A DNA stretch of 64,000 nt from Tubulanus polymorphus (taxonomy: Eukaryota; Nemertea; Palaeonemertea; Tubulaniformes; Tubulanidae): positions 23,472,153 to 23,536,152 of the forward strand of contig NC_134028.1 in the NCBI RefSeq assembly GCF_964204645.1, read 5' to 3'. A program made the position numbers and the translations under genes. Below are positions 33,896 to 60,695 of the stretch, one piece after another; position 1 is the stretch's first letter, and the number at the start of each line of letters is the position of its first letter. Under the pieces are notes generated by a model. That model saw only the letters and a program-made list of their open reading frames with translations. It was not told where the DNA came from and did no database searches.

Positions 33896-36438
33896 ATGAT
33901 TCCTACATTGATAGCGTTCATTGCTGCGGCATTTGGAGTCTGTAATGCTTTCTATATAGAAAAGCGTGATGATGTTGGAGCCGAATGTGGCTGTCTTCCA
34001 CGTCAATTTGGTGGCAACTATGAATTCCGCTTTTTGGACTTCGGTCGCGAGAATCATCCCAACAAGGATTTGACGACTTTCATCCTCGAAGGACGGTATG
34101 TACTATCAAAGTATTGTTATTCAAGAGATCGAGAGGTTAAAAAAATCATTTATTATTTTCCTGCTATTATTCCTAATCTATTTTACTATCCGTTTTAACT
34201 AAATTGCTTTACGTTCCGATCATTTGGAATCTGTCAGTTCACCATGCTCAATCCAAAATAGATGGTTCTCCATGCCAGTTTACTCAATGGTCATATCTAT
34301 AGGTCTATCATAGATATTATATTTTCTGAGCGACCAGAGCATGGCCGCTCAGAAATGCGGCCATGCTCTGGTCGCAATAAACAATATGATGTAAATCACA
34401 TAATACCAAGGATCTATGAAGTTATTTCAAGTTTGCAAATATTGATAATTTTGAATTGGCCGATAACCAGTCAGGCCCCGATGTATTGATGACGTAGAGC
34501 ACATCTCAAAAATAACTATTAGAATTTATCAGAAATGAAATAAGAGTTATGAAATATATTTACTTACAAAGTAAGCGCCTAAGTTTACAATTGTGATTTT
34601 TAATTTTCGAACGCCAATATGGGTACTATATACGAGGTATCAATGTATGTAAACATGTACCGGTTTGTACGGCATCTAACAACCGCACAAGACACCGGTA
34701 AGTCACAAGGTCCAATTACCATACTCTTTATACGTATATCGTAAGACAATCAGTTATCGGATATGAATTATGTTTTATAGATTATGAACGTATCTAAGCG
34801 TTTTCTCCAAAATTAATAAATTAATGTATCAATATTATGTAGATCAACTTAATCTTTTGACAAGGGATCAGGGGCAACGAATTCCCAATTTTTCGGATGT
34901 TCCAATACTAGGTTTATTTCAGATTTGATAAACGTATATTCCATTTTTTTTATACAAATTTCTGTTCGTTTAGAATCGTGATAAATATGGACGAATTGAA
35001 ATACTACGTGACGATAGCGAACAGGAAAAGAGCAGCTGGGTTTGAAGGCAAGGATGAATATGGTTGGTATGGACCATTGAACTATGCCTTGATGGGTGAC
35101 CTTACCAAAGTAAGTACAACGTTTCAGTGTTTCAAAATTTCAAAGTTTATTTTCCTCCTTATTTTACAGAAAAAAAAATTTGAGCACTGCCTAGTCTATC
35201 CTACAATGAATATTACATAACACATGGTGGCCAGAAGATGGCAAAAAAACAAAACAAAATTATTTCGCAGGAGTTTTTGCATAAGTACATTCATTAATAT
35301 TGATCTGATACAATCACGCTTTTAAAAAATATTTATGAATCGCTATCAAAAAAGAGGAATATAGTGCATTGGGAGTATATTTGGTGAGTATTTCAGGGGG
35401 TAGTGTTATAACAGTTTATTTGTTTATAAAGTATAACGGGCAAGCCGTTTCTCGTACTTTGCCGTGTTAAAAAGTGCCTGAAGTGCGTATTGCCTTGATC
35501 GCCTGTAGTAGAACGCTGGTAAGTATTTATGTCTTAAATTTTGAAAAAAGTAACATTCTAAATTAGAATGGAACTCGTCACCGACGAGGTTCATAATGCA
35601 CTTATTTCCACGTTCATCCCTAGGGATATTATGGAAACGACCGGTCTCAATAATAGGTAGTTAGTGGTTCGAGCATTAGAATTTACATAGCATTATACAA
35701 ATAAATACTAAGTAACAATGCGGCATAAGTAGAGGTTTGTAATTTATATAATATTCAATTGTCACATCTTTACGTACAGAATAAGCTATCGATGAAAACA
35801 GGAAGTCATTGTATGAACGCACATTATGAAACGACCTTTCTTCGCGGGAAAAAAGTAGGGAAAAAACTTGATAGCATTCGCTGTTACGCAAGTGAGTAAA
35901 AATGATATAGCTCCATGCGCGATAAGGATGGGAACAGTAATTTGTAATGATTTTGATATTTTAGGAAATACAGACAGTTCTACCGTGTCGAACGGAACGG
36001 ACGATTCTGGAAAGGGAATGACATTCGTGATACGTGAAACGTTGAGTGAATTGAATTTGACCTACTCACTACCAGACTGCCATTTGAACGAAATTTCTGG
36101 AATAAAACTTGTACCACGTAGAGGTAAAAAAAGAAAAAAAATATCGGCTCACGCGGATAAGTATATGCACTTTTTAACGTCCATGCTTTCTACTATGAGG
36201 TGAGGCAGTGTATCCTAAGTTTGACATTAAGATTGACAAATTGGATGCAAAAGAACTTGACGGGGTAAAATTATGTGATAAACCGATGAAAGAAATAACC
36301 ACACACGTAAGTTCAACAAACAATGAGAAAATGTGTTCGTCCTCGTCGAATCGCTGAATACTTTTGAGTTTCTCTGGTTTTCTCTTTCAGCAAATACCAT
36401 CGCTCTTCCCCTATCCATTCAACACAGAGCTCGTCTGA
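33896..36438 (+). CDS. S1: secreted six-cysteine protein, orphan family
   Basis: Six coding exons: 33896..34095, 34974..35109, 35780..35891, 35965..36123, 36200..36306, 36391..36438 (phases 2,0,1,1,0), 253 residues. I chose the ATG at 33896 because a TTTCAG acceptor sits one base before it in all five copies, suggesting a 5' UTR intron. Residues 1-18 are a signal peptide (cleavage likely after CNA). KR at 23-24 lies just inside the mature end. Mature cysteines are C31, C33, C123, C147, C188 and C228; sequons lie near N159 and N180. The C-terminus ends FPYPFNTELV. I do not recognise the family; there is no membrane segment. Poly(A) signal at 36460. It lies 0.55 kb upstream of receptor R1 in the same direction. 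Intron 2 holds a retroelement scrap. Confidence 0.85.
34330..34375. repeat. 19-bp perfect inverted repeat in S1 intron 1
   Basis: Arms 34330-34348 and 34357-34375 are perfect complements with an 8-base loop, GC-rich in AT-rich surroundings. A second, shorter pairing (TTCTGAGCG with CGCTCAGAA) competes with it. Not present in the other S introns. Confidence 0.85.
34451..34640 (-). repeat. Interspersed repeat A in S1 intron 1
   Basis: Diverged reverse-orientation copy (ggccgataaccagtcaggc, then gatgacgtagagcacatc). The same element lies at the matching place in S2 (41266-41462), S3 (44408-44604) and S4 (47548-47720), so it entered before those copies split. Confidence 0.55.
35400..35710 (-). 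mobile_element. Non-LTR retrotransposon 3' scrap in S1 intron 2
   Basis: Aligns with 48406-48705 in S4 intron 2, where the minus strand still reads as the C-terminal part of a LINE polymerase. Here the frame is broken. Confidence 0.6.
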
Positions 36439-36644
36439 AGTAGACAGATATGAACTCAGAATAAAAAGCGATCAAACTTGTATTGATTATGCTTAACTGA
36501 CTATGTATTACAATAAACTGAATTATAAGTATTTATTGCTATTCTGTATTTCGTGTATACCTTTATTACCAATGAAACACTCTGCCGAGCTGTGAGGATA
36601 AACCTCATTTTCTAACAGTAAATAATCAATTCTAAAAAATATTA

Positions 36645-36715
36645 CTTAAGCTAATAGTTTATTCGACTTTTCAACTATAACCTAAAAATGATCATCTTCA
36701 GGAATACTGAATTGA
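36645..36715 (-). repeat. Repeat C downstream of S1
   Basis: Minus-strand CTGAAGATGA ... TTGAAAAGTC followed by GAATAAACTATTAG. Related copies follow S2 (43130-43215), S3 (46272-46357), S4 (49600-49690), S5 (53485-53545) and one at 63241-63290. The CTGAAGA / GAAA spacing again recalls a decayed hammerhead core. Confidence 0.45.
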
Positions 36716-36905
36716 AGCACAATTTTGAATACGTATATTCAAAAGATTGCCTTTTTTAAAAACGGGTAAACATTCATGAATATAAATGAACTATTTCTGA
36801 TGAGATTATATCGGTAATTTTTGCAATTCATTCAATTCTAAATTCCATTAGTGCATTAGCTTTTGCGCTATCTTCATTCATCATTTAAGAACCTAAATGT
36901 AGACG

Positions 36906-36917: not shown

Positions 36918-36990
36918 CACGCTATTTGGAATATCATTACTTTAAGTATTTCATTTCAAATCCCGCCGTCGTCGACGCCAGTCAGAAAAC

Positions 36991-39662
36991 ATGTTCGCTA
37001 TCGTCACAGTTCTCGGCATCTTATTTCGAATAGCGACGCTTTGTTCGTCGAAGAAGATTTATAGCGGTAAGTTCATATCGATTCATTGTTTCTTCGACTC
37101 ATTAATATTGTAAAATCCTCATTCACTGTTGTTGTCTGTCATAATTTCAACGATATTTTGGATGCTGTTTTAGGTGCTTCGACGAATGTGTCCAGTTGTT
37201 ATAACGATGGCAGCTGGTGTTCCGAAACCGAATCCTGTTATCTAATGGGAACATGTTGTCCGAGTTATGAAACTAGTGAAAATAAGTCAATCGTGATAAG
37301 CGGGGATGAGAAATTGGAAAACGGTCGGTTTTCCTACTACGTCAGTTGCGTCAATTTCGACGTGCCATATTTTGAAATGTATGCCAAAGGACGTGACGAT
37401 CTTTGGGCAGTATCGATGTGTCCGCTGCAGTACCGCGATAACTCAATCCGTCAACTTTGCCAAAATCCTTCTAATATAGATGACAATTCACAACTCTCCG
37501 ACCTAATCCAATATACACCAGTCATTTACAGAAAAATTCTTTTTCGTAACTATTATTGCTTCAGTTGTCATATAGACGCCGTTCCGAATGATTTCGAATT
37601 GAAACAAGTCCAAATTGAGTTCGTCCATCCAGAATTTCCACGGCCAGAAGATAGTTCCGCCGTCAACATCAAACTGTTCCCACGATTGAAAAATCTGTAT
37701 GACGTAATCTTTAAATGGGACAGGTTACTGACGACGAAGTGTTTTAACGCGGATTTTCATCGACAGATTACGAGGTGTCCGAATCAGACGGATTCGTTAT
37801 GTCATCAATACGTGGAAACAGTGAGCCATACACGACTCAACATCATATTCAGGAACTACCACTGCGCTGTTTGCCACGGTTTCAACCTCGAAGAACTCGC
37901 CTGTCATCAGTCGTACGGCGCAACTTTCATGCGTGTATTCGCTAAATTATCGATCTTGTTTGATCTATCAAAACCAGATGTAACTGTAGCGCAACTGCGC
38001 CAATATGGGACATTAGTGGATTCATCGCTAGGGTGTAAAGTCCCGGGTATGATCTACAATACAATCACCAAAATGTGTCAAAATCGTTCTGACTTCGAGG
38101 AAATGTTTCCAGAATCGCATCTATATCGACAGGTCTACGTAAATTTGCGATTGCAGCATATATCTAAAACCATATACGCTCATTTTTTCGACAAGCTGAA
38201 AAATACGTTTAGCGTCTTCACGGGAGATTTTAATGCTAATATTTCCATCGTGACAAACTGGTGCAACCAATCGACGTGTTTACACGTGATCAGTTTCTCG
38301 CTGAAAGTTTTCACCGATTTGACCGAGAGTCAAATACACGACAAAATAACGATCTCCGCCGAAACACCGAATTCGGAACACGATATTTTCAAAATCGTAC
38401 AACTAACAGTCGCAAATTTTGAAAACCACCAACCGCAAAAAGATTGCGTCAAAAAACGATTCCCAGAACAAAACATATCATGGACGATACAGCATGGAAT
38501 TCAGTATATTCGACTAATTGATGAATCAAATAAGAATGCGACAGACATGCGATCTAGATGGTTACCAGTTCGACTTGATTCCGGGGTTCATATCAAATAC
38601 ATTCAACGAAATGGAAGAAAACGAAAAGAAATCTTCGTTTGCAAACGAGAGTTTTGTAAAAACGAAAGGATTTTCAGTCGTTCATTTGTGACCAATTCTA
38701 TAAGTGGTTTGAGCTTAGTAATTCCAGACGAATTAGATCTAACTCTAAGTAGAGACCAGGTGAGATTGATGGGTAATATCTCGGTCGTCTGTCTGGACGA
38801 GTTTCTAGAACGTCATTTCGCTGAATCTACGAACATCGAAGGTATTATAACTGTAGTCACGTGTTCCTTGTCCCTAGCAGGACTAACGTCGCTTCTACTG
38901 ACCTATTTTTTATTCTCAGCTTTGCGGACAGTTCCCGGTTTGACGCTGATGCATCTGTCCGCTTCGCTATTCCTCGTCGTACTTATTTTCAACGCAATCA
39001 TATCACGGGAATTTCTGACGCATTATTGGATGCTCTGTAATATCCTCGGTATTTCTACTCATTATCTTTGGTTCGTCGTTTTTTCTTGGACCACGGTGAT
39101 CAGTTACGATACGTTCCACGCGTTCAGCAATTCAACAGTCGCCGAGAACTCGCAGAAGCTCCTAAGATATCGCTATTATTGTTTATTCGCGTGGTTATTC
39201 CCGCTTTTCCCCATATTCGTATTCACCGCAATAACCTTCGCGTTACCCGACACTGGATTCAAATACGCCGACCAACGAAAGAGAATTTGTTGGATCTCGA
39301 ATCATCAGCAACTTGTGTTTACATTTCTGTCTCCGATTTTAATTCTATGTTTAATTAATTTGATCTACTATGTGTTAACTCTGCGGGCTATATTCAAGGC
39401 GAAGAAAGCCGCCAGTTCGGCTCGATCCAATCACGATAAAAGTTATCTATTCATCGTCAAACTTTCATTGATAATGGGTCTGACGTGGTGTCTCGGTTTA
39501 TTGGTATCGATGTTCGATTCTGAAATACTTCGTATTTTTTATACGACGTTCAACGGGTCCCAGGGATTCCTCATTTTTATTTGCTTCGTGTTGAGACCGA
39601 AAGTTTTTCGCTTGTATCGGCGACTTTTTGAAAAGTGTTGCAAATACAACGGTGTCAAGTAA
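36991..39662 (+). CDS. R1: adhesion/Methuselah-like 7TM receptor
   Basis: Two exons, 36991..37066 and 37174..39662 (phase 1), 854 residues. The short first exon gives a signal peptide (MFAIVTVLGILF...), conserved base for base around the splice site in R3 and R4. The ectodomain (about 27-575) starts with a cysteine-rich knot ending GTCCPSYE, somewhat like a somatomedin-B end, and has two copies of an FRNYxCxxCH motif (about 149 and 252) and many sequons. The 7TM part (about 582-831) has class B/adhesion features: a cysteine at the top of TM3 (WMLCNILG), CWIS in loop 2, GLTWCLGL in TM6 and NGSQGFLIFICFVL in TM7. I see no GPS cleavage motif. A short basic tail follows. AATAAA at 39726. Ligand unknown; the S proteins are candidates by position. 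Confidence 0.9.
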
Positions 39663-39731
39663 TATTGTAATAATAGTAAATAGACCAGATCGATATTAAA
39701 CAAAAAATTCAGTAAACAATATCCCAATAAA

Positions 39732-40755: not shown

Positions 40756-42974
40756 ATGATTCCTACATTGATAGCGTTCATTGCTGTGGCATTTGGAGTC
40801 AGTAATGCTTTCTATATAGAAAAGCGTGATGATGTTGGAGCCGAATGTGGCTGTCTTCCACGTCAATTCGGTGGCAACTATGAACTCCGATTTTTGGATT
40901 TGGGTGATGAATATAATCCCAACAAGGATTTGACGACTTTTATCCTCGAAGGACGGTATGTGCTATCAAGTATTGTTATTCAAGAGATTGAGAGGTTGAT
41001 GAAATCCGTTTATTGTACCTGGTCTAATATATTTCACTATCCGCTTTAACTAAATTGCTACGTTCCGATCATGTTGAATCTGTCAGTTAACCATGCTCAA
41101 TCCAAGGCAAGAAAATTAACTCGATAGTTTAATGACGCTTTGGAAAATATTATCGCATATTGCTTGATATTGTCGACAATGAACGATACAATATACATCA
41201 TATAATAATTAAGGATCTATGAAGTTGTTTCAGATTTGAAAATATCGATAATTGAATTTGAATTGGCCGGCAACCAGTCTAGCCCAGATATATTGACGAC
41301 GTAGTGCACATCTCCTCAAGAATAATTATCAAATTCTATCAAGAATGAAATAAGAGTTATGAAATATATCTAATTACAAAATTAACGCCAAAATTTTCAA
41401 TAGTTATCTTGAAACGCCAAGACGGGTGACGTAGGCGCGTCGACTCACACAGAACCCCCTAAAATAATACATAGTATCAATCTACATAAACATTATCGTA
41501 ACGGTTTGTACGGCACCAAACAACCGCGCTAAGAAACGTCACAAGAACCAATTACCATACTATTTATACGTTCATCGTAAGACTAGATATCGGACATGAT
41601 CTATGTTTTAGAATGTATCTAAGCGTTTTCTCCAAAATACATGTATCAATATAATGTAGATCAACTTTTCTCTTCTTAACAAGGGATCTATATACTTAAC
41701 ATGGGGCCATAATGTCCTAATTTTTCGGATGATACTAGGTTTATTTCATATTTTGATATACGCATATTCCAATTTTGATATACGCATATTCCATTTTTAT
41801 ACAAATTTCTATTCGTTTAGAATTGTGATAAATATGGACGAATTGAAATTCTACGTGACGATATCGAACAGGAAAAGACTAGCTGGGCGTGGAGGCAACG
41901 ATGATGCTGATTGGTACGGACCAATGAACTACGCCTTGATCGCTGACCTCACCAGAGTAAGTAAAAAGTTCCAAAGTTTCAAACCTTTTTTCATTCAAGT
42001 TTATTTCACTCCATACTATACAAAAAATAATTATGAGTACAGATTAGTCTGTTCTACAATACATATTACATTATTACATATTACAAGGTGGCCAGAAGAT
42101 GGGGCCAAAAAATCAAAAATGAAATAATTTTGCAGGAGTACATACATTGATACATAGAACTAATACAATCCAGCTTTTATAGAATACTTTTCAATCGCTA
42201 TCAAAAAAGAGGATTGTAGTGCGCTGTAAGTCTAACTGGTGAGGAATTCAGGGGGTAGTGTTAACAGTTTATTTGCCTCTTACAGAATATAATATCGAGG
42301 GAACAAGACAAATATTGTTTGAACGTACATTTTGAAGAGGCGTCTCGTCAGTGGAAAAAAGTAGGAAAAAGATTTGATAGCATTCGCTGTTATGCAAGTG
42401 AGTAAAAATGAAATAGCTCCGTGTATACGATAAGGATGGGAACAGCGATTTGTAATGATTTTGATATTCAAGGAAATACAGAAAGTTCTACCGTGTCGAA
42501 CAGAACGGACGATTCTGGCAAGAGAATGACATTCATGATACGTGAACTTTTCAGAGTATTCAATTTTACCTACTCGCTACCAGACTGCCATTTGAACGAA
42601 ATTTCAGGAATATTAGTTATGCCACGTAGAGGTAAAAAATAAAATATTCGCTTACGCTGATAAGTATATGCACCTTCTTTTACGTCAATGCTTTTCACTC
42701 TGTAGGTCGGGAAGCGTTTCCTAAGTTTGACATTAAGATTGACAAATTGGATGCAAAAGAACTTGAAGGGGTAAAATTATGTGATAAACAGACGAGAGAA
42801 ATTTCCGCATCCGTAAGTTCAACAAACAATGTAATGAGAAAATGTGTTCGTCCTCGTCGAATCGCTGAATACTTTCTGAGTTTCTCTGGTTTTTTATTAC
42901 AGTTTATACCATCACTCCTGCCCTATCCATTCAACAGCATCCTGGAGAGGATTGATATTTTTGATTATTTATAA
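40756..42974 (+). CDS. S2: secreted six-cysteine protein
   Basis: Exons 40756..40955, 41821..41956, 42286..42397, 42473..42631, 42706..42812, 42903..42974; 261 residues, same phases as S1. Compared with S1 it has ELRFLDLG in exon 1, a distinct exon 3 (NIISREQDKYC...) and a longer C-terminus ending IDIFDYL. The exon 4 acceptor is CAAG instead of TTTAG. All six cysteines and the KR site are kept. From the last part of exon 1 onward it is identical to S3. Poly(A) signal AATAAA at 42990. No receptor gene follows before S3. Confidence 0.85.
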
Positions 42975-45900
42975 ATGACTATGAATTACAATAAAGAGAA
43001 TAAACATTTATTGCTATTCAGTATTTCATGTATACCTTTATTACCAATGAAACCTCTGCCGAGCAGTGAGGATAGCATAGAACCTCCCGTTCCAACAGTG
43101 AATAATCAAGTCTGAAATCTTACTTAAGCTAATAGTTTATTCGACTATTCGACTATAACCTAAGAAAATCATCTCCAGGAATACTGAATTGAAGCAACAC
43201 TTTTGAATACATATATTCAAAAGAAGTTTTCGACGCGCATCACTGCGCCATGGTTAAAAAAGATAAATACAGATAATCGGGCGATAGAGATACGTAGTCC
43301 CGTAGGTGACATGGTGAGAAAAAGAATTTTTTTTTGTGGGAACAAAATAACCTTTTCGTAGCCACGAAACACGTTTCGTTCGTTTATTCTTCCAATATTT
43401 CAAAGATCTACCTTTATTTCAAGAGAAACCACCGAATCACGATATAAACGATACATATGATACTTTTATTTACGATACATATATTACTTTTTCCTTTGCT
43501 TTATTATGCGCGACGAGTGGGACGAAACATTAACAGAAATAAACGCTAATAGCAATACATAAATGGACGAGCTACGGGTAAGTGGTCAGTATTATTAGCT
43601 ATTGGTTATTTTATTTTGATTATAGCTCAATCTTGAATGAAAAGATCGTTCAATAATCGGCATCATTACCATCTATCACAAAACACCAATTACGTAATGA
43701 CTGCCAAAATGTAATAACCTACAAATAGAATTACGTAGGCGTGGATTTTTCTACGTATATGTCATTTCATAGCGAGGAAATGCGAGAAAATGTACTACGC
43801 TCATGTAAGCTTATAATGAATGACTATCTTTAAAATCTGCATATAAAACTGAATATATGGCTTTAAGGTTCAATACAAAACATTTTTCACTTTCAGGATG
43901 ATTTCTACATTGATAGCGTTCATTGCTGTGGCGTTTGGAGTCATTAATGCTTTCTATATAGAAAAGCGTAATGATGTTGGAGCCAAATGTGGCTGTCTTC
44001 CACGTCAATTCGGTGGCAACTATGAACTCCGATTTTTGAATATGGGTGGTAAATATGATCCCTACAAGGATTTGACGACTTTTATCCTCGAAGGACGGTA
44101 TGTGCTATCAAGTATTGTTATTCAAGAGATTGAGAGGTTGATGAAATCCGTTTATTGTACCTGGTCTAATATATTTCACTATCCGCTTTAACTAAATTGC
44201 TACGTTCCGATCATGTTGAATCTGTCAGTTAACCATGCTCAATCCAAGGCAAGAAAATTAACTCGATAGTTTAATGACGCTTTGGAAAATATTATCGCAT
44301 ATTGCTTGATATTGTCGACAATGAACGATACAATATACATCATATAATAATTAAGGATCTATGAAGTTGTTTCAGATTTGAAAATATCGATAATTGAATT
44401 TGAATTGGCCGGCAACCAGTCTAGCCCAGATATATTGACGACGTAGTGCACATCTCCTCAAGAATAATTATCAAATTCTATCAAGAATGAAATAAGAGTT
44501 ATGAAATATATCTAATTACAAAATTAACGCCAAAATTTTCAATAGTTATCTTGAAACGCCAAGACGGGTGACGTAGGCGCGTCGACTCACACAGAACCCC
44601 CTAAAATAATACATAGTATCAATCTACATAAACATTATCGTAACGGTTTGTACGGCACCAAACAACCGCGCTAAGAAACGTCACAAGAACCAATTACCAT
44701 ACTATTTATACGTTCATCGTAAGACTAGATATCGGACATGATCTATGTTTTAGAATGTATCTAAGCGTTTTCTCCAAAATACATGTATCAATATAATGTA
44801 GATCAACTTTTCTCTTCTTAACAAGGGATCTATATACTTAACATGGGGCCATAATGTCCTAATTTTTCGGATGATACTAGGTTTATTTCATATTTTGATA
44901 TACGCATATTCCAATTTTGATATACGCATATTCCATTTTTATACAAATTTCTATTCGTTTAGAATTGTGATAAATATGGACGAATTGAAATTCTACGTGA
45001 CGATATCGAACAGGAAAAGACTAGCTGGGCGTGGAGGCAACGATGATGCTGATTGGTACGGACCAATGAACTACGCCTTGATCGCTGACCTCACCAGAGT
45101 AAGTAAAAAGTTCCAAAGTTTCAAACCTTTTTTCATTCAAGTTTATTTCACTCCATACTATACAAAAAATAATTATGAGTACAGATTAGTCTGTTCTACA
45201 ATACATATTACATTATTACATATTACAAGGTGGCCAGAAGATGGGGCCAAAAAATCAAAAATGAAATAATTTTGCAGGAGTACATACATTGATACATAGA
45301 ACTAATACAATCCAGCTTTTATAGAATACTTTTCAATCGCTATCAAAAAAGAGGATTGTAGTGCGCTGTAAGTCTAACTGGTGAGGAATTCAGGGGGTAG
45401 TGTTAACAGTTTATTTGCCTCTTACAGAATATAATATCGAGGGAACAAGACAAATATTGTTTGAACGTACATTTTGAAGAGGCGTCTCGTCAGTGGAAAA
45501 AAGTAGGAAAAAGATTTGATAGCATTCGCTGTTATGCAAGTGAGTAAAAATGAAATAGCTCCGTGTATACGATAAGGATGGGAACAGCGATTTGTAATGA
45601 TTTTGATATTCAAGGAAATACAGAAAGTTCTACCGTGTCGAACAGAACGGACGATTCTGGCAAGAGAATGACATTCATGATACGTGAACTTTTCAGAGTA
45701 TTCAATTTTACCTACTCGCTACCAGACTGCCATTTGAACGAAATTTCAGGAATATTAGTTATGCCACGTAGAGGTAAAAAATAAAATATTCGCTTACGCT
45801 GATAAGTATATGCACCTTCTTTTACGTCAATGCTTTTCACTCTGTAGGTCGGGAAGCGTTTCCTAAGTTTGACATTAAGATTGACAAATTGGATGCAAAA

Positions 45901-47298
45901 GAACTTGAAGGGGTAAAATTATGTGATAAACAGACGAGAGAAATTTCCGCATCCGTAAGTTCAACAAACAATGTAATGAGAAAATGTGTTCGTCCTCGTC
46001 GAATCGCTGAATACTTTCTGAGTTTCTCTGGTTTTTTATTACAGTTTATACCATCACTCCTGCCCTATCCATTCAACAGCATCCTGGAGAGGATTGATAT
46101 TTTTGATTATTTATAAATGACTATGAATTACAATAAAGAGAATAAACATTTATTGCTATTCAGTATTTCATGTATACCTTTATTACCAATGAAACCTCTG
46201 CCGAGCAGTGAGGATAGCATAGAACCTCCCGTTCCAACAGTGAATAATCAAGTCTGAAATCTTACTTAAGCTAATAGTTTATTCGACTATTCGACTATAA
46301 CCTAAGAAAATCATCTCCAGGAATACTGAATTGAAGCAACACTTTTGAATACATATATTCAAAAGAAGTTTTCGACGCGCATCACTGCGCCATGGTTAAA
46401 AAAGATAAATACAGATAATCGGGCGATAGAGATACGTAGTCCCGTAGGTGACATGGTGAGAAAAAGAATTTTTTTTTGTGGGAACAAAATAACCTTTTCG
46501 TAGCCACGAAACACGTTTCGTTCGTTTATTCTTCCAATATTTCAAAGATCTACCTTTATTTCAAGAGAAACCACCGAATCACGATATAAACGATACATAT
46601 GATACTTTTATTTACGATACATATATTACTTTTTCCTTTGCTTTATTATGCGCGACGAGTGGGACGAAACATTAACAGAAATAAACGCTAATAGCAATAC
46701 ATAAATGGACGAGCTACGGGTAAGTGGTCAGTATTATTAGCTATTGGTTATTTTATTTTGATTATAGCTCAATCTTGAATGAAAAGATCGTTCAATAATC
46801 GGCATCATTACCATCTATCACAAAACACCAATTACGTAATGACTGCCAAAATGTAATAACCTACAAATAGAATTACGTAGGCGTGGATTTTTCTACGTAT
46901 ATGTCATTTCATAGCGAGGAAATGCGAGAAAATGTACTACGCTCATGTAAGCTTATAATGAATGACTATCTTTAAAATCTGCATATAAAACTGAATATAT
47001 GGCTTTAAGGTTCAATACAAAACATTTTTCACTTTCAGGATGATTTCTACATTGATAGCGTTCATTGCTGTGGCGTTTGGAGTCATTAATGCTTTCTATA
47101 TAGAAAAGCGTAATGATGTTGGAGCCAAATGTGGCTGTCTTCCACGTCAATTCGGTGGCAACTATGAACTCCGATTTTTGAATATGGGTGGTAAATATGA
47201 TCCCTACAAGGATTTGACGACTTTTATCCTCGAAGGACGGTATGTGCTATCAAGTATTGTTATTCAAGAGATTGAGAGGTTGATGAAATCCGTTTATC
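40925..47298 (+). repeat. 3142-bp near-exact tandem duplication across S2-S4
   Basis: Every exon, intron and spacer from late exon 1 of S2 recurs 3142 bases later, and the match runs on into exon 1 and the start of intron 1 of S4 until about 47298, where bases begin to differ. The open frames on both strands are identical in the two units. It is either very recent or an assembly duplicate. Confidence 0.9.
43898..46116 (+). CDS. S3: secreted six-cysteine protein, S4/S2 hybrid
   Basis: Exons 43898..44097, 44963..45098, 45428..45539, 45615..45773, 45848..45954, 46045..46116; 261 residues. The start of exon 1 (MISTLIAFIAVAFGVINAF, EKRNDVGAKCGC, LNMGGKYDPYKDL) is that of S4, while exons 2-6 are those of S2. 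The acidic-to-basic change E-to-K before CGC alters the charge at the mature N-terminus relative to S1, S2 and S5. Confidence 0.85.
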
Positions 47299-49457
47299 AT
47301 ACCTGGTCTAATCTATTTCACTATCCGCTTTAACTAAATTGCTACGTTCCGATCACGTGGAATCTGTCAGTTAACCATGCTCAATCCAAGGCAAGAAAAT
47401 TAACTCGATAGTTTAATGAAGCTTTGGAAAATATTATCGCATATTGCTTGATATTGTCGACAATGAACGATACAATATACATCATTTGATAATTAAGGAT
47501 CTATGAAGTTGTTTCAGATTTGAAAATATCGATAATTGAATTTGAATTGGCCGGCAACCAGTCTAGCCCAGATATATTGACGACGTAGTGCACATCTCCT
47601 CAAAAATAATTTTCAAATTTCATCAGAAATAAAATTAGAGTTATGAAATATATCTAATTACAAAATGAACGCCAAAATTCTCAATAGTCATTTTGAAACT
47701 CTCAAGATGGATGACATAAGCACTATCGTAAGACTAGATATCGGATATGAATTATGTTTTATAGATTATGAACGTATCTAAGCGTTTTCCAGAATAAATG
47801 TATCAATATAATGTAGATCAACTTATCTCTTCTTGACAAGGGATCTATATACTTAACAGGGTGCCATAATTTCCAAATTTTTCGGATGATACTAGGTTTA
47901 TTTCATATTTTATATGCGTACATTCCATTTCTTATACAAATTTCTATTTGTTTAGAATCGTGATAAATATGGACGAATTAAAATTCTATGTGACGCTAAC
48001 GAACAGGAAAAGACTAGCTGGGCGTGGAGGCAACGATGAAGCTGGTTGGTACGGACCAATGAACTACGCCTTGATGGCTGACCTCACCAAAGTAAGTACC
48101 AAGTTCCGAAGTTTCAAACCTCTTTTCATTCCAGTTCATTTTGATCCATATTTTACAAAAAAAAATTCTGAGCACATATAAGTCCGTCCTACAATACATA
48201 TTAAATATTACATATCACATGGTGGCCAGAAGATGACCAAAAAAATTAAATAAAACAATTTCGCAGGAGTTTTTGTAAGTACATACATTGATATAGATCT
48301 GATACAATAAATAACGCTTTTTAAAGAATACTTATGAATCGCTATCGCTAAAAGAGGAATATAGTGCACTGTAAGCCTAACTGGTGAGGAATTCAGGGGG
48401 TAGTGTTATAACAGTTTATTTGCCTCTTTAATATAACGGGCAAGCCGTTTCTTGTACTTTGCCGTGTTAAAAAGTGCCTGAGGTGCGTATAGATTTGATC
48501 GCCTGTTTTTAGTAATTGTGTAAATAAAGTTACATTCTAGAATGAAATGGAACTCGTTACCGACGAGGTTCATAATGCACTTATCGCATATGCGTTCATC
48601 CCTAGGGATATTATAGAAACGACCGGTCTCAATTGGTAGTTTGTGATTTGAGCATCTTAATCTACATATCATTATACAAATACATACTGAGTAACTTTGC
48701 GGCATTAGTGGAGTTTGCGAGGTTTGTAATCTAAATAATGATATTCAGATATCACATTTTTACAGAATATAATATCGAGTAAAACAGGCAATCGTTGTGC
48801 GAACGCATATTTTAAATGGGCGAATCGTCAGTGGAAGAACATAGGAACAAATTTTGAAATCATTCGCTGTTACCCAAGTGAGTAAAAATGACATAGCTTC
48901 ACATATGCGATAAGGATGAGAACAGCGATTTGTAATGATTTTGTTATTTTAGGATATACAGAAAGTTCTACCGTGTCGAACAGAACGGACGATTCTGGAA
49001 TGAGAATGACATTCATGTTACGTAGAATGTTCAGTGCATTCAATTTGACCTACTCACTAGCAGACTGTCAATTGATCGAAATTTCTGGATTTAAATTCAT
49101 GCCACGTGGAGGTAAAAAAAAACAAAATATTCGCTAACGCTGATAAGTATATGCACCTTCTTTTACGTCAATGCTTTTCACTATGTAGGTAAAGTAGTGT
49201 ATCCTAAGTTTGACATAAAGATTGACAAATTGGATGCAAAAGAACTTGACGGGGTAAAACCATGTGATGGACCGATGAGAGTAATTCCCGCATACGTAAG
49301 TTCAAGAAACAGTGCAATGAGAAAATGGGTTCGGTCCCCGTCGAATCGCTGAATACTTTTGAGTTTCTGTGGTTTTTTCTTTCAGGAAATACCATCACTC
49401 CTGCCCTATCCATTCGACGATCTGCCTGGAGAAGATATTGTCTTTGACTTTTTATAA
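47040..49457 (+). CDS. S4: secreted six-cysteine protein
   Basis: Exons 47040..47239, 47956..48091, 48766..48877, 48953..49111, 49189..49295, 49386..49457; 261 residues. Exon 1 equals that of S3; the body is distinct. Exon 3 reads NIISSKTGNRC...IIRCYP and is the most changed of the set, exon 4 has PRGG in place of PRRG, exon 5 has KPCDG, and the tail ends GEDIVFDFL. Intron 2 keeps a LINE fragment. The next gene downstream is the deleted receptor psiR2. Confidence 0.85.
48406..48705 (-). mobile_element. LINE polymerase C-terminal fragment in S4 intron 2
   Basis: About 99 open codons on the minus strand, including LPIETGRFYNIPRDER, a CDKC, EFHFILEC and a basic YKKRLARYIKEA end. This is the usual C-terminal zinc-knuckle pattern of animal LINE-type reverse transcriptases (ETGR..N.PR.ER.C..C, E.HF...C). 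The rest of the element is missing. The matching S1 scrap is at 35400-35710; S2 and S3 keep only the left border and S5 has none. Confidence 0.75.
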
Positions 49458-49901: not shown

Positions 49902-50381
49902 CGAAACCACCAACTGGCTAAAGATTTTGTCAAAAAAAAAGATTCCCAGAACACAACATAATCGTCGACGTTACAACAAGGAATTCAAAATGCGACGAAC
50001 ATCAGATATAAATGGTTACCAGTTCGACTTGATTATTATCTTGATTTGATCTACTATGTCTCAACTCTGCGGTCTATATTCAAGGCGAAGAAGGCCGCCA
50101 GTTCGGCTCGATCCAATCACGACAAAAGTTATCTATTCATCGTCAAACTTTCATTGATAATGGGTCTGACGTGGTGTCTCGGTTTATTCGTTTCGATGTT
50201 CGATTCTGATATACTTCGTATTTTTTATACGACGTTCAACGGGTCCCAGGGATTCCTCATTTTTGTTTGCTTCGTGTTGAGGCCAAAAGTTTTTCGCTTG
50301 TATCGGCGACTTTTTGAAACGTGTTGCAATAACAACGGTGTTGACATTGTTATAATAGTGTTTAGGCCAGATCGATACTAA
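49902..50381 (+). pseudogene. psiR2: receptor gene with two large deletions
   Basis: An R-type promoter (motif at 49834) runs directly into sequence matching the late ectodomain (parent R1 near 38420) at about 49900, so the signal exon and most of the ectodomain are gone. At about 50035-50046 a second junction jumps from the pre-TM1 region (parent 38580) to late TM5 (parent 39357). The remaining TM6-TM7 part is open and well conserved, with one change GLFVSMFDSD, but the normal stop is lost through a small deletion and the frame runs on to 50381. No functional receptor can be made. Confidence 0.85.
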
Positions 50382-51599: not shown

Positions 51600-53269
51600 A
51601 TGATTCCTACATTGATAGCGTTCATTGCTGCGGCGTTTGGAGTCAGTAATGCTTTCTATATAGAAAAGCGTGATGATGTTGGAGCCGAATGTGGCTGTGT
51701 TCCACGTCAATTTGGTGGCAACTATGAATTCCGTATTGTGGATACTGGTCGCAAGAATGATCCTAATAAGGAATTGACAACTTTCATCCTCGAAGGACGG
51801 TATGTGCTATCGAGTATTATGATAAAAAATTGGGAAGTTAGAGAAATCCATTTATCATATCTGCTATTTTCCGATATCACACATCTGTTTCACTATTTGC
51901 TTTAAGTACGTAGAATTTTACGTTCAGGTCATGCGGAATTTGTCAATTGACCATGCTTAACACGACGTATTTAGCTCTGCATGTCAGTCATCTCAGTGGT
52001 CCTATCTATAGGTCATTATAGATATTATATAAGTTGTTGATATATCCAGGGATGAAAAATTGACTCGGAAGGTAAAAGGTTAATCGCATTCTAGTCTAGC
52101 CCAACCCTTTACCCAACCATTCATCGTATTTAAGTCGTTTAGATAATTTTTCATCCCTGGCCTATTTTACCTTACCCTTGTAAATAGATTGTTAGACAAT
52201 TCGATGTCGGGTACGAATTCTATTTCATATTATATATCTAAGCGTTTTTCCCAAGAATTAAGGTCAGATGAGTTTAAGAGTGTCTCGAAGGAAGAAGCAA
52301 CGGATCTACGAACTTAACAACGGGCGATAAATTTCAATTTGTCTTTCGGAGGTTCTTTGAGATTCGAAAGATTTCATTTTTCATACGATATTGTTATTCG
52401 TTTAGAATCGTGATAGACATGGACGTAAAGAAATTATACGTGGCGATAACGAACAGGAAAAAACCAGCTGGAATTGAAGGCAACAATGAAGCTGGTTGGT
52501 ATGGACCGTTGGACTATGCCTTCATGGGTGACTTCACCAAAGTAAGTACACATACTTGAACTAAATGAAACTTCGCAATTCTTAATTCAAATTTGATCCA
52601 ATTGTCACATTTTTACAGAATATACTATCAATGAAAACAGGAAGTTTTTGTATAAACGCACATTATGAATCGGCCTTTCTTCGAAGGAAAAAATTGGGGG
52701 AAAAGCTTGATAGCATTCGCTGTTTCCTAAGTGAGTAAAAATGAAATAGCTCCATGTATACGAAAAGGATGTAAACAGCGATTTGTAATGATTTTGATGT
52801 TTTAGGAAATACAGACAGTTCTACCGTGTCGAACAGAACGGACGATTCTGGAAAGGGAATGACATTCATGTTACGTGAAATGTTCAGTGAATTCAATTTG
52901 ACCTACTCGCTACCAGACTGCCATTTGAACGAAATTTCTGGATTATATTTGTTACCGCGTAGAGGTAAAAACAAATAAATATTCGCTTACGCTGATAAGT
53001 ATATGCACCTTCTTATCCGTAAATGCTTTTCACTATGTAGGTGAGGCGGTCTTTCCTAAGTTTGACATAAGCATTGACAAATTTGATGCGAAGGAACTTG
53101 ACGGGGTAACATTATGTGATAAACCGATCAAAGAAATATCTACACACGTAAGTTACACATGAGCAAATGTGGACCCCTTCGTCGAATCGATGAAATATTT
53201 TTAAGCTTCTCTGCTTTTATCTTTTAGCAAATACCATCACTCTTCTTACCCTATCCGTTCAACACATGA
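51600..53269 (+). CDS. S5: secreted six-cysteine protein
   Basis: Exons 51600..51799, 52406..52541, 52619..52730, 52806..52964, 53041..53147, 53228..53269; 251 residues, the shortest member, with compact introns. Exon 1 is close to S1 but has CGCVPRQ and RIVDTGRKNDP. Exon 2 differs most here (MDVKKLYVAITNRKKPAG). The C-terminus ends LPYPFNT, without the tail of S2-S4. Cysteines and KR site are kept. It lies 0.5 kb upstream of receptor R3, the same spacing as S1-R1. Confidence 0.85.
52046..52160. mobile_element. Small MITE-like element in S5 intron 1
   Basis: Perfect 16-bp inverted ends CCAGGGATGAAAAATT (52046-52061) and AATTTTTCATCCCTGG (52145-52160) around 83 bases. Absent from the other S introns. 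No clear target duplication. Confidence 0.6.
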
Positions 53270-53775: not shown

Positions 53776-56439
53776 ATGTTCGCTATCGTCACAGTTCTCG
53801 GCATCTTATCTCAAATAGCGACGCTTTGTTCGTCGAAGAAGATTTATAGCGGTAAGTTCATATCGATTCAGTGTTCGACTCGGCTTTAAAATCATCATTC
53901 ACGCTGTTGTTGTCTGTCATGATTCTACGATATTTTGGATGCTGTTTTAGGTGCTTCGACGAATGTGTCCAATTGTAATAACGGTGGCAACTGGTGTTCC
54001 GAAACCGAATTCTGTCATTCAATGGGAACATGTTGTCCGAGTTATGAAACTAGTGAAAATAAGTCAATCGTGATGGGCGGGGATGAGAAATTGGAAAGCG
54101 ATCAGTTTTCCTACTACACCAGTTGCGTCAATTTCGACGTGCCATATTTTGAAATGCATGCCAAAGGACGTGACGATCTTTGGGCAGTATCGATGTGTCC
54201 GCTGCAGTACCGCGATAACTCAATCCGTCAACTTTGCCAAAATCCTTCTGACATAGATGACAATTCGCAACTCTCCGACCTAATCCAATATACACCAGTC
54301 ATTTACAAAAAAGTGCTCTTTCGAAACTTTTATTGCTTTAGTTGTCATATAGACATCGTTCCAGATAATTTCGAATTGAAACAAATCCAAATTGAGTTCG
54401 TCAAACCGGAAATTTCACGGCTAAAAGATAGTCCCACCGTTGACATCAAACTGTTCCCACGATTGAAAAATTCGTACGACGTAAAATTCAAATGGGACAC
54501 TTATCTGACGACGAGATGTTTTAACGCGGATGTTCATCGACAGATTACGAGGTGTCCGAATCATACGGATTCGTTATGTCATCATTACGTGGAAACAGTG
54601 AGCCATACACGACTCAACATCATGTTCAGGAACTACCACTGCGCTGTTTGCCACGGTTTTAACCTCGAAGAACTCGCCTGTCATCAATCGTACCGGGCTG
54701 ACTTCGCGCGTGCATTTGCCAGATTATCGATCTTGTTTGACCTATCAAAACCAGATGTAACTGTAGCGCAACTGCGCCAATTTGGGACATTAGTGGACTC
54801 GTCGCTAGGGTGTAAAGTCCCGGGTATGATCTACAATACAATCACCAAAATGTGTCAAAATCGTTCTGACTTCGAGGAAATGTTTCCAGAATCACATCTA
54901 TATCGACAGGTCTACGTAAATTTGCGATTGCAGCACATATCTAAAACAAAATACGCTCATTTTTTCGACAAGCTGAAAAATACATTTAGCGTCTTCACGG
55001 GCGATTTTAATGCTAATATTTCTATAGTGACAAACTGGTGCAACGAATCGACGTGTTTACATGTGATCAGTTTCACGCTGAAAGTTTTCACCGATTTGAC
55101 CGAGAGTCAAATACACGACAAAATAACGATCTCCGCCGAAACACCGAATTCGGAACACGATATTTTCAAAATCGTACAACTAACAGTCGCAAACTTTGAA
55201 AACCACCAACCGCAAAAAGATTGCGTCAAAAAACGATTCCCAGAACAAAACATATCGTCGGCGATACAACAAGGAATTCAGTATATTCGACTAGTCGATG
55301 AATCAAATAAGAATGCGACAGACATGCGATCTAGATGGTTACCAGTTCGACTTGATTCCGGGGTTCATATCAAATACATTCAACGAAATGGAAGAAAACG
55401 AAAAGAAATCTTCGTTTGCAAACGAAAGTTTTGTAAAACCGAAAGGATTTTCAGTCGTTCATTTTTTACCAATTCGACAAGTGGATTGAGCTTAGTAATT
55501 CCAGGCGATTTGGATCTAACTCTAAATAGAGATCAGGTGATATTGATGGGTAATATCTCGGTCGTCTGTCTGGACGAATTTCTAGCACGTCATTTGACTG
55601 ACTCTACGAACATCGAAGGTATTATAACTGTAGTCACGTGTTCCTTGTCCCTAGCAGGACTAATGTCGCTTCTACTGACCTATTCTTTATTCTCAGCTTT
55701 GCGGACAGTCCCCGGTTTGACGCTGATGCATCTGTCCGCTTCGCTATTCCTCGTCGTACTTATTTTCAACGCGATCATATCACGGGAATTCCTGACGCAT
55801 TATTGGATGCTCTGTAATATCCTCGGTATTTCTACTCATTATCTCTGGTTCGTCGTTTTCTCTTGGACCACTGTGATCAGTTACGATACGTTCCACGCGT
55901 TCAGCAATTCAACAGTCGCCGAGAACTCGCAGAAGCTCCTAAGATATCGCTATTATTGTTTATTCGCGTGGTTATTCCCGCTTTTCCCCATATTCATATT
56001 CACCGCAATAACCTTCGCGTTACCCGATACTGGATTCAAATACGCCGACCAACGAAAGAAAATTTGTTGGATCTCAAATCGGCTGCAACTTGTGTGTACA
56101 TTTCTGTCTCCGATTTTAATTCTATGTTTAACTAATTTGATCTACTATGTCTTAACTCTGCGGGCTATATTCGAGGCGAAGAAGGCCGCCAGTTCGGCAC
56201 GATCCAATCGCGACAAAAGTTATCTATTCATCGTCAAACTTTCATTGATAATGGGTCTGACGTGGTGTCTTGGTTTATTGGTTTCGATGTTCGATTCTGA
56301 AATACTTCGTATTTTCTACACGACGTTCAACGGGTCCCAGGGATTCCTCATTTTTATTTGCTTCGTGTTGAGACCGAAGGTTTTTCGTTTGTATCGACGA
56401 CTTTTTGAAACGTGTTGCAATAACAACGGTGTCAAGTAA
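53776..56439 (+). CDS. R3: adhesion/Methuselah-like 7TM receptor
   Basis: Exons 53776..53851 and 53951..56439, 854 residues, same length as R1. The signal exon has LSQIATLC in place of LFRIATLC, giving a cleaner hydrophobic core. The 7TM part starts at about 582 and is nearly identical to R1 and R4, while the ectodomain differs in patches (IEFVKPEISRLKDSPTVD; YRADFARAFARL; loss of one W near the late ectodomain, SSAIQQG). AATAAA at 56535. Its 3' flank resembles that of the scrap psiR5, not those of R1 and R4. A shift in loop 3 (IFEAKKA for IFKAKKA) changes charge. Confidence 0.9.
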
Positions 56440-56479: not shown

Positions 56480-56870
56480 GAAAATATGTAAACGATTCCA
56501 AAACTACGAAAAATCAGCGATGGAATAATATCTCAATAAAAATGATTTCATTTTTGAAAAATATCTTTGTCTTTTCCCGGGTGTGGAGAATTCTGTGTGT
56601 GGCATATTCTAACGAGGACTTTTAGTGGTCGTTAAAAATGTACTGTCCAAAGCGATAGACAACAAACGGGTGACATGCCAGTAATGAGACAGAATATTAG
56701 AAATTGGTTCGAACAAGAAATCATTTAATCATGAAGTAGACAATTAAAAGAATGTACAATATTGATAAAAAATATGCGCTTAACCGTTTCGTCGATGCTT
56801 GAAACGAACTTGATTTTTCAGCGAATCATTTTCAATATCCAGCTTCGCCATGTGACTAATGATTATGGGC
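56480..56870. repeat. Segmental copy of 60715-61265
   Basis: Phrases such as atgagacagaa, attagaaattggttcgaaca and atcagcgatg recur in the same order in both places. The copy carries the R-type 3' flank together with the end of the RRNAL gene. Confidence 0.75.
56770..56857 (-). pseudogene. Fragment of the RRNAL-repeat gene's last exon
   Basis: The minus strand matches the intact gene's SHMAKLDIEN...RFKHRRNG segment, with several substitutions and a stop codon directly after RRNG. No other part of the gene is present. It marks the segmental duplication that extended the cluster. Confidence 0.75.
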
Positions 56871-57235
56871 GAGAACTAGAACGAAAATATCTTACAGGTA
56901 ATAACAGCTGATAGTAATAAATAAGGGGACGATCTACGTGTATGAATTTAAATGTCGTCTTCAATATGCGTCATAACCATTTCAAAACAATGACGGACAA
57001 AAGTTGATCACCTACAAGTAAGGCGTGGATTTTCCTGCGTATGTTCAATTTAATTCAACGATCTCTTTATTGTACTGAATACACCACTTTCTGGCCGAGA
57101 TGTACAGAGTGATATCTACAAAATAGTATTTTACAAACCATAGACGCGAAAATCTACGCGCTAAATGCAACAAACAATATGAAGAAGGGGTCGAGTCACA
57201 AGAATTCTTTGGAGTAAATCTAATTTTTTCTTTCA

Positions 57236-57284
57236 GAACATACCGTTACTCTTACCCTACGACTTTATACTCTGCAGCCCTTAA
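57236..57284 (+). pseudogene. psiS6: remnant of an S gene last exon
   Basis: A TTTCAG acceptor followed by codons for NIPLLLPY, matching the IPSLLPYPF start of S exon 6, then an unrelated tail and TAA. Upstream (56950-57030) part of the S promoter flank survives, including the AGGCGTGGATTT motif at 57021. Exons 1-5 are gone. It takes the place of an S gene before R4. Confidence 0.65.
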
Positions 57285-57684
57285 ACCTAGAATTCGCTAG
57301 TGATTCTAGAATCCCATGAATAATAACTGAAGATAAAAGAAATTAAACTCGTGTAGATTATGTATTACACGTGCTACTGACATGATCACAAGTATGCATC
57401 GTTATTCTGCCGTTATTTTTGCCATACGTGTATTCAGATGCCCACTTTTTACAACGGCGAAATTCACGGGTATACAAATTGCCTACTATTTTTAATAAGA
57501 TTATATCAGCCACTTTTATACGCGTCTAACTCTAAACGCCATTAGTGCATTAGCTTTTGCGCTATCTTCAATCATCATTTAAAAAAAAAACTAAATGTAG
57601 ACGAGGCGTGGAATTCGCGCTAATATCATTACTTTAAATATTCCTTATGAAATTCTTTATCGTCGTCGACGCCAGTCAGAAAAC

Positions 57685-60355
57685 ATGTTCGCTATCGTCA
57701 CAGTTCTCGGCATCTTATCTCAAATAGCGACGCTTTGTTCGTCGAAGAAGATTTATAGCGGTAAGTTCATATCGATTCAGTGTTTCATCGACTCAGCTTT
57801 AAAATCATCATTCACGCTGTTCTTGTCTGTCATAATTCTACGATATTTTGGATGCTGTTTTAGGTCCTTCGACGAATGTGTCCAAATGTAATAACGGTGG
57901 CAACTGGTGTTCCGAAACCGAATTCTGTTATCTAATGGGAACATGTTGTCCGAGTTATGAAACTAGTGAAAATAAGTCAATCGTGATGGGCGGGGATGAG
58001 AAATTGGAAAGCGATCGGTTTTCCTACTACACCAGTTGCGTCAATTTCGACGTGCCATATTTTGAAATGTATGGCGACGTACGTGACGATCTTTGGGCAG
58101 TATCGATGTGTCCGCTGCAGTACCGCGATAACTCAATCCGTCAACTTTGCCAAAATCCTTCTGATATAGATGACAATTCCCAACTCTCCGACCTCATCCA
58201 ATATACACCAGTCATTTACAAAAAAGTGCTCTTTCGAAACTTTTATTGCTTTAGTTGTCATATAGACATCGTTCCAGATAATTTCGAATTGAAACAAGTC
58301 CAAATTAAGTTTGTCACTCCGATGATTCCACGGCTAGCAGATAGTCCCACCGTTGACATCAAACTGTTCCCACGATTAAGAAATTTGTATGACGTAATAT
58401 TTGAATGGGACAGTTATGTGACGACGAGATGTTTTAACGCGGATGTTCATCGACAGATTACGAGGTGTCCGAATCAGACGGATTCGTTATGTCATCATTA
58501 CGTGGAAACAGTGAGCCATACACGACTCAATATCATGTTCAGGAACTACCACTGCGCTGTTTGCCACGGTTTCAACCTCGAAGAACTCGCCTGTCATCAA
58601 TCGGACAACACATTTTTAATGAATGTATTCGCTAAATTATCGATCTTGTTTGACCTATCAAAACCAGATGTAACTGTAGCGCAACTGCGCCAATATGGGA
58701 AATTAGTCGACTCGTCGCTAGGGTGTAAAGTCCCGGGTATGATCTACAATACAATCACCAAAATGTGTCAAAATCGTTCTGACTTCGAGGAAATGTTTCC
58801 AGAATCACATCTATATCGTCCCCTGTACGTATATTTGCGAGTACAGCATATATTATCTAAAACCAAATACGCTCCTTTTTTCGACAAGCTGAAAAATACA
58901 TTTAGCGTCTTCGCGGGGGATTTTAATGCTAATATTTCAATCGTGACAAACTGGTGCAACGAATCGACGTGTTTACACGTGATCAGTTTCACGCTGAAAG
59001 TTTTCACCGATTTGACCGAGAGTCAAATACACGACAAAATAACGATCTCCGCCGAAACACCGAATTCGGAACACGATATTTTCAAAATCGTACAACTTAC
59101 AGTCGCAAACTTTGAAAACCACCAACCGCAAAAAGATTGCGTCAAAAAACGATTCCCAGAACAAAACATATCATGGACGATACAACAAGGAATTCAGTAT
59201 ATTCGACTAGTCGATGAATCAAATGAAAATGCGACAGACATTCGATCTAGATGGTTACCAGTTCGACTTAATTCCGGGGTTCACATCAAATACATTCAAC
59301 GAAATGGAAGAAAACGAAAAGAAATCTTCGTTTGCAGACGAGAGTTTTGTAAAAACGAAAGGATTTTCAGTCGTTCATTTTTTACCAATTCGACAAGTGG
59401 TTTGAGCTTAGTAATTCCAGGCGATTTGGATCTAACTCTAAATAGAGACCAGGTGAGATTGATGGGTAATATCTCGGTCGTCTGTCTGGATGAGTTTCTA
59501 GAGCGTCATTTCGCTGAATCTACGAACATCGAAGGTATTATAACTGTAGTCACGTGTTCCTTGTCCCTAGCAGGACTAACGTCGCTTCTACTGACCTATT
59601 CTTTATTCTCAGCTTTGCGGACAGTCCCCGGTTTGACGCTGATGCATCTGTCCGCTTCGCTATTCCTCGTCGTACTTATTTTCAACGCGATCATATCACG
59701 GGAATTTCTGACGCATTATTGGATGCTCTGTAATATCCTCGGTATTTCTACTCATTATCTCTGGTTCGTCGTGTTCTCTTGGACCACTGTGATCAGTTAC
59801 GATACGTTCCACGCGTTCAGCAATTCAACAGTCGCCGAGAACTCGCAGAAGCTCCTAAGATATCGCTACTATTGTATATTTGCGTGGTTATTCCCGCTTT
59901 TCCCCATATTCATATTCTCCGCAATAACCTTCGCGTTACCCGATACTGGATTCAAATACGCCGACCAACGAAAGAGAATTTGTTGGATCTCAAATCGGCT
60001 GCAACTTGTGTGTACATTTCTGTCTCCGATTTTAATTCTATGTTTAATTAATTTGATCTACTATGTGTTAACTCTGCGGGCTATATTCAAGGCGAAGAAA
60101 GCCGCCAGTTCGGCTCGATCCAATCGCGATAAAAGTTATTTATTCATCGTCAAACTTTCATTGATAATGGGTCTGACGTGGTGTCTCGGTTTATTGGTTT
60201 CGATGTTCGATTCTGAAATACTTCGTATTTTCTATACGACGTTCAACGGGTCCCAGGGATTCCTCATTTTTGCTTGCTTCGTGTTGAGACCGAAGGTTTT
60301 TCGCTTGTATCGACGACTTTTTGAAACGTGTTGCAATAACAACGGTGTCAAGTAA
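57685..60355 (+). CDS. R4: adhesion/Methuselah-like 7TM receptor
   Basis: Exons 57685..57760 and 57864..60355, 855 residues; one extra residue relative to R1/R3 lies at QHILSKTKYAPFF in the middle ectodomain. Other changes gather at MYGDVRDD, IKFVTPMIPRLADSP, FEWDSYVTTRC and DNTFLMNVF. The two FRN(Y/F)xCxxCH motifs, the GTCCPSYE start and the 7TM part are kept. AATAAA at 60374. The 3' flank is of the R1/psiR2 type. Confidence 0.9.
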
Positions 60356-60635
60356 CATTGTTATAATAGTCCCAATAAATTGATTTAGATTTTGAAGCAT
60401 CTTCATCTTTTTCCGGGCGTGAAAATTTGGTATATTTAAAGAGGTTCGTCTTCAACAAGGCTTTGAGTAGTTGTTTATAAAGGATCAATGGTTCAATGTC
60501 TCGCCAAACAACGCGAAGTAAAATGTTACACTATATAAACATTTAATTGATAGAAAATTGTCTCGATTTTATTCAGTGTAAACCTTTAATGTCTTTTATT
60601 AAAACGACCTCATACCTCGACTAAGTCTTAAGACG

Positions 60636-60695
60636 CCAAGGTTTTCGCTTGTATCGGCAACTTCTTGAAACGTGTTTGAACAACGGCGTTAATTA
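60636..60695 (+). pseudogene. psiR5: last 60 bases of a receptor gene
   Basis: Matches the end of the R coding region (AAGGTTTTTCGCTTGTATCG onward, to the stop) with a missing T that breaks the frame and an altered ending. The bases after it resemble the R3 3' flank. It is a left-over of an additional receptor copy next to the RRNAL gene. Confidence 0.75.

Follow-up and report, generated by a model that had tools for sequence, protein, structure and literature searches.

The S-R array of the nemertean Tubulanus polymorphus is a 27-kb tandem array located at 33.9-61.0 kb of the window (the whole 64-kb stretch of DNA analysed, positions 23472153-23536152). It contains five intact genes for a predicted secreted protein (S), three intact genes for a seven-transmembrane (7TM) receptor (R) and three remnants, all on the + strand. 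We consider that the S-R adjacency is probably a single inherited neighbourhood and not a cognate pair (probability roughly 0.6), and that S would act outside the cell on a target of its own, for example in mucus, gamete or defence secretions. S was found only in the array, matches to R lie at 50 or more outside places, and no S was found at the eight nearest R loci, which together favour the bystander origin of the adjacency. The first-pass annotation had proposed that S proteins are ligands or co-factors of R. No direct support for this was obtained: the repeated linkage goes back to one ancestral adjacency that was duplicated in tandem, S was not detected within 10 kb of the eight nearest R relatives or, by tblastn, anywhere outside the array, and the copy numbers of the two genes have parted (five intact S against three intact R).

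The host genome searched comprised 268 Mb in 77 contigs. No copy of S outside the array was found by tblastn (E≤10), as the 27 matches of S2 and the 25 matches of S5 were all in the array. The receptor search gave at least 54 places (54 of 76 candidates were scored), four of them in the array and 50 outside the window. Ten of the outside places matched the R ectodomain too, and the 40 that matched the 7TM part only may be other class B receptors. Around the eight R relatives closest in sequence, fifteen flanks (∼143 kb) were surveyed, which covers 8 of the 50 outside places; the other 42 were covered only by the genome-wide S tblastn. Neither tblastn nor exon profiles picked up an S within 10 kb of any of these eight relatives (0/8), in a search shown with no positive control. 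The best S-like matches in the flanks had E values of 0.39 (tblastn) and 0.073 (exon profile) and were short stretches. Weak S-like exons near the R genes at three loci (L040, L013 and L047; E 0.19, 0.073 and 0.73) were matches of 9-18 residues and were read as chance.

Neighbour genes were named for three of the eight R relatives. Two relatives on one contig (L014 and L016, on C6) adjoin repeated DNA with frames for ASC (DEG/ENaC-type) channels (L037-L039); all four frames tested in L038 matched ASC, two of them over the cut-off. The third (L017, on C11) adjoins repeated DNA with Sugar_tr/MFS transporter frames (L044-L045), and two of three frames tested in L045 gave such matches, one over the cut-off. 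That receptors of the R family can stand in tandem blocks with differing neighbours fits what bystander adjacency predicts. Among the nine R loci looked at, only this array has a secreted protein as a constant receptor neighbour.

The members of the array, in the order S1-R1, S2, S3, S4-psiR2, S5-R3, psiS6-R4 and psiR5 tail, are as follows.

S1, 33896..36438, + strand: splice model of six coding exons (33896-34095, 34974-35109, 35780-35891, 35965-36123, 36200-36306, 36391-36438), 253 aa, signal peptide by eye, GT/AG at each junction, open frame.
R1, 36991..39662, + strand: exons 36991-37066 and 37174-39662, 854-aa adhesion-like 7TM receptor, open frame, PF00002 E 9.2e-21.
S2, 40756..42974, + strand: splice model of six coding exons, 261 aa.
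S3, 43898..46116, + strand: splice model of six coding exons, 261 aa, apparent S4/S2 recombinant.
S4, 47040..49457, + strand: splice model of six coding exons, 261 aa.
psiR2, 49902..50342, + strand: receptor remnant that has lost a large internal part, tblastn E 1.7e-52 to 1.4e-51.
S5, 51600..53269, + strand: splice model of six coding exons, 251 aa.
R3, 53776..56439, + strand: exons 53776-53851 and 53951-56439, 854-aa receptor, open frame, 7tm_2 match.
psiS6, 56862..57433, + strand: scattered remnants of an S unit by DNA similarity only, comprising an upstream piece (56862-56941) and the last exons with the 3′ end (57122-57433).
R4, 57685..60355, + strand: exons 57685-57760 and 57864-60355, 855-aa receptor, open frame, 7tm_2 match.
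psiR5, 60625..61010, + strand: the last 21 receptor codons (60625-60687, tblastn E 0.006) and 3′ flank (blastn, 77.7% over 403 columns).

Splice models, tblastn and blastn placed all members on the + strand, in agreement with the order and single orientation given in the first-pass annotation, and the S1 start was found at the same ATG (33896). The distance from the S coding end to the R ATG is 552 bp in S1-R1 and 506 bp in S5-R3, close to the 0.5 kb described before. The remnants psiR2, psiS6 and psiR5 tail also proved real by tblastn or DNA similarity. The tail of psiR2 is 86-87% identical to R3 and R4, and its 7tm_2 fragment scored 18.2 bits, under the cut-off of 20.6. For psiS6, DNA matches were obtained at 57122-57259 (64.9% over 148 columns, E 6e-10) and 57190-57433 (60.5% over 253 columns, E 8.5e-8), and the piece of S upstream DNA at 56862-56941 was 82.5% identical over 80 columns (E 6e-16); at the protein level, tblastn with S proteins gave only an 11-residue match (E 0.9).

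In each intact S gene the six coding exons are bounded by consensus splice sites and specify a protein of 251-261 aa, in which a signal peptide is seen by eye; the protein identity of the copies to S2 ranges over 69-96%. The intact R genes have a short first exon (signal peptide by eye) followed by one long exon and encode 854, 854 and 855 aa, R1 and R4 being 91% and 93% identical to R3. Poly(A) signals are present for S and for R, each its own; in the five S genes AATAAA stands 3′ of the stop, and TTTCAG one base before the ATG (33896, 40756, 43898, 47040 and 51600). These signals suggest that S and R are separate transcripts and that S has an intron in the 5′ untranslated region (5′-UTR). 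Transcription of S and R as a single transcript was rejected because S has its own poly(A) signals. The TTTCAG before the S starts suggests a 5′-UTR intron or a leader exon outside the located coding exons. A 130-bp element lies in intron 1 of S2-S4 (41157-41285, 44299-44427 and 47441-47569); it recurs inverted at 5141-5270 with about 79% identity and is probably a dispersed repeat.

The pairs S1-R1, S4-psiR2, S5-R3 and psiS6-R4 support the earlier claim that the original duplicated unit was S+R. S2 and S3 have no adjoining R, and S4 adjoins psiR2 only. S3 showed 0/600 differences from S4 over 400 bp upstream plus exon 1, and no difference from S2 over 1433 aligned intron bases plus exons 2-6. 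Judged from these matches, S3 is a recombinant consisting of the S4 5′ end and the remainder of S2; the pattern could come from unequal crossing-over that is very recent, or from an artefact of assembly. When S1-R1 was compared with S5-R3 in 200-bp steps, six steps in the S part and the S-R gap (35700-36900) were 8-27% different, while steps in the long R exon (37300-39700) were 2-13% different. Divergence is lower among the R coding sequences than among the neighbouring S genes, which indicates that R was homogenised, or duplicated again, after the S copies had parted. The array appears to have grown from one two-gene unit, S then R, via unequal crossing-over, and then to have lost some R and S copies and formed the recombinant S3; gene conversion is the probable reason why its receptor genes differ less from one another than its S genes do.

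R had been described as class B/adhesion-like, and the domain searches bear this out. 7tm_2 (PF00002) was found in all three window receptors (68.8-74.6 bits, cut-off 20.6) and in all 11 aligned members of the R family. Somatomedin B (SMB, PF01033) was found in 6 of the 11 aligned members (best E 1.7e-5); all six lie outside the window, where they make up six of eight. No Pfam match to SMB was obtained for R1, R3 and R4 at E≤1, but in the alignment these three keep the core CS-x(4)-C-x(2)-MGTCC. Solved relatives of R by sequence and by fold are adhesion G-protein-coupled receptors, and the best PDB folds for the R3 model were ADGRL2, ADGRG2 and ADGRD1 (adhesion and class B 7TM). For the full-length receptor the mean predicted local distance difference test (pLDDT) score was 59.8, and the ectodomain of that model was left uninterpreted; searching by fold with the membrane-proximal ectodomain did not point to any family. 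From its domain make-up, and not from a tree, R appears to be an SMB adhesion-like receptor of the PARF1/NvX kind, that is, a G-protein-coupled receptor whose large cysteine-rich ectodomain would sense an extracellular cue.

Planarian PARF1 and Nematostella NvX are SMB-bearing adhesion-like receptors according to the consulted part of PMC3261222, and an expansion of SMB/Kringle adhesion receptors in amphioxus is described in that of PMC2246102. As presented there, these receptors share with R the class B/adhesion 7TM part, SMB in near relatives and lineage-specific expansions. They differ in that the window R copies gave no SMB match at the threshold above, and in that the same parts of these sources describe no S-like partner and name no ligand. 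On present similarity, R would be a further member of a known receptor kind, and S an orphan family found only in the array.

The description of S as an orphan held: Pfam gave no match for S1, S2, S4 and S5 at E≤10. Against solved structures the best E was 1.3, with lipocalins at 1.6-1.8, which is chance level. In all five copies cysteines stand at positions 31, 33, 123, 147, 188 and 228 and NxS/T sites at 159 and 180. We predict that S is secreted and specific to its lineage, and that it is probably glycosylated and stabilised by disulphides. The idea that S is a shed part of R or a decoy for it was rejected, as S matches no R gene genome-wide and profile comparison gave a probability of 0.1%.

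We also considered that S might be a very divergent ependymin-related protein (EPDR), an ancestry that is possible, if somewhat unlikely, and compatible with either reading of the linkage. Several resemblances were noted by eye: the C-x-C-x-P-x-Q-F start and the C-terminal FDIKI...C block, a six-cysteine order like cysteine profile 2 of the EPDRs in the part of PMC6280359 consulted, and a phase-0 intron lying 11-13 residues ahead of the cysteines equated with each other (S C123, host EPDR C92). A forced alignment to a mixed EPDR set put three S cysteines on EPDR cysteines, and the host genome has two EPDR genes above the Pfam cut-off, one of them modelled with six exons. However, S gave no significant match to the EPDR family profile or its members in any test, and the reversed S profile outscored the real one against EPDR in all six settings. 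In the cysteine-placement test 57 of 250 shuffles did as well, and at the pocket position EPDR has C-x-P where S has C-H-L or C-Q-L. As presented in the consulted parts of PMC6280359 and PMC9759900 (starfish), EPDRs are like S in being secreted, expanded in lineages and fast evolving, with a similar cysteine order by eye; they differ from S in most introns and in length (S 251-261 aa, host EPDR 190 aa), with no statistically supported sequence similarity. The same starfish source treats EPDRs as a rapidly evolving secreted family with proposed roles as conspecific signals. On these comparisons an EPDR origin of S may serve as a lead, not as a classification.

The ratio of nonsynonymous to synonymous rates (dN/dS) of S pairs except S2-S3 was 0.55-1.13. 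Pooled over the six pairs of S1, S2, S4 and S5 it was 0.41 in mature exon 1, 1.15 in exon 3 and 1.10 in exon 4. Values near 1 in several pairs would be expected if the S copies were decaying duplicates without function, which we regard as very improbable, since frames and splice sites are intact and the six cysteines and both NxS/T sites are kept in all five S genes. Moreover, 4.6% of single changes in S2 give a stop, so that the ∼250 changes on the tree (hand arithmetic) predict ∼11 stops, and none was seen. Better conservation of S beside an intact R was tried and rejected: branch dN/dS (hand arithmetic) was ∼1.0 for S1, 0.4 for S5, 1.0 for S2 and 1.3 for S4, with no consistent link.

The distal R ectodomain changes amino acids faster than the 7TM part, with dN/dS of 0.61-0.76 over residues 1-330 and 0.20-0.26 over the 7TM region. 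At the SMB-like end (codons 1-100) ∼23.5 amino-acid changes stood beside 0.5 silent ones, compared with 85:59 in the remaining ectodomain (p 1.4e-5). The amino-acid rate of codons 1-100 (0.098 per site) is no higher than that of codons 101-330 (0.103), and silent changes are scarce in codons 1-100 (0 or 1 of 61 sites against 59 of 302, p 1e-5 to 1e-4). Positive selection on codons 1-100 was therefore rejected, as the extreme ratio stems from the deficit of silent changes; the intron inside this stretch does differ between copies.

These rates bear on the alternative in which S proteins serve the R ectodomains as ligands, antagonists or co-factors, the adjacency being kept for joint inheritance of matching alleles, as in the s-Themis/v-Themis pairs of Ciona. 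Several points weigh against the bystander reading and towards such a pairing. S and R have stayed paired in the four copies of the ancestral unit. In both, amino-acid change is high in places, which would be in keeping with a co-evolving pair; the skewed ratio in R codons 1-100 is included here. In three of the five S pairs compared, exons 3-6 had diverged more than introns 3-5, namely S2-S4 (92/450 vs 21/238, p 6e-5), S1-S4 (85/426 vs 24/231, p 0.0014) and S1-S2 (77/426 vs 23/228, p 0.006). An S gene near a distant R could be too diverged to be seen by the flank search, which was shown with no positive control, and flanks were read at only 8 of the 50 outside R places, with neighbours named at 3 of those 8.

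On the other side, the eight R loci examined have no S, and the repeated pairing descends from one adjacency and so is not independent evidence. R was homogenised while S diverged, and the signal in R comes from too few silent changes, with no raised amino-acid rate. S1-S5 went against the three pairs above, exons 3-6 having changed less than introns 3-5 (46/417 vs 38/225, p 0.04), and S4-S5 showed no difference (87/417 vs 36/230, p 0.12). Whole-gene S exons are not fast: they exceeded introns only in S2-S4 (0.158 vs 0.097), where the flanks were as fast (0.171). In S1-S2 exons changed at 0.162, introns at 0.219 and flanks at 0.268, in S1-S4 at 0.185, 0.204 and 0.250, respectively; in S1-S5 (exons 0.121, introns 0.481) and S4-S5 (0.207, 0.437) exons were below both introns and flanks. 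The S pair comparisons are not independent, and splice signals in short introns lower the intron rate, so we take the rate evidence in S as suggestive, not decisive. The whole-gene rates slightly lower the odds of a functional S-R pair, which we judge unlikely.

Still less likely is the fuller proposal that S and R form a linked, co-diversifying recognition locus of secreted ligand and SMB-adhesion receptor. If it were true, SMB-adhesion receptors would gain a protein ligand, and animals a new haplotype-type system of self or gamete recognition. The nearest likeness is s-Themis/v-Themis of Ciona, which in the part of PMC7018956 consulted are a tightly linked gene pair, one encoding an extracellular protein and the other a membrane protein, with variable parts. 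They differ from S-R in being polycystin-1-like and fibrinogen-like, in having v-Themis within an s-Themis intron in the opposite direction, and in being multi-allelic and functionally tested, whereas the S-R locus is a same-strand tandem array known from one genome sequence alone. No published account of S-R pairing was met in the literature search. The array offers a small testable candidate set of five S proteins by three R, and if S does not bind R, the bystander reading would make this locus a clear example of neighbourhood duplication mimicking a ligand-receptor cluster.

Downstream of the array, a minus-strand frame at 61095-61907 (271 aa) has a possible first exon near 63760 and repeats, by eye, a motif like A-x-A-D-I-Y-x-G-L-S-x-x-E-I-x-Y-L. 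Pfam matched it to TC1 (E 0.0034), under the cut-off. We rejected this neighbour as a peptide precursor because its likely first exon has no signal peptide by eye and Pfam relates it weakly to TC1. A fragment of this gene at 56762-56864, behind R3, indicates that the duplicated block once reached into it. Upstream of the array, a serine carboxypeptidase exon lies at 29111-29476 on the minus strand (Peptidase_S10, E 9e-21). The window also holds a minisatellite at 17912-19144 (26-bp unit, 47.4 copies, 94% matches) and a TA dinucleotide array of 108 units at 62544-62755.
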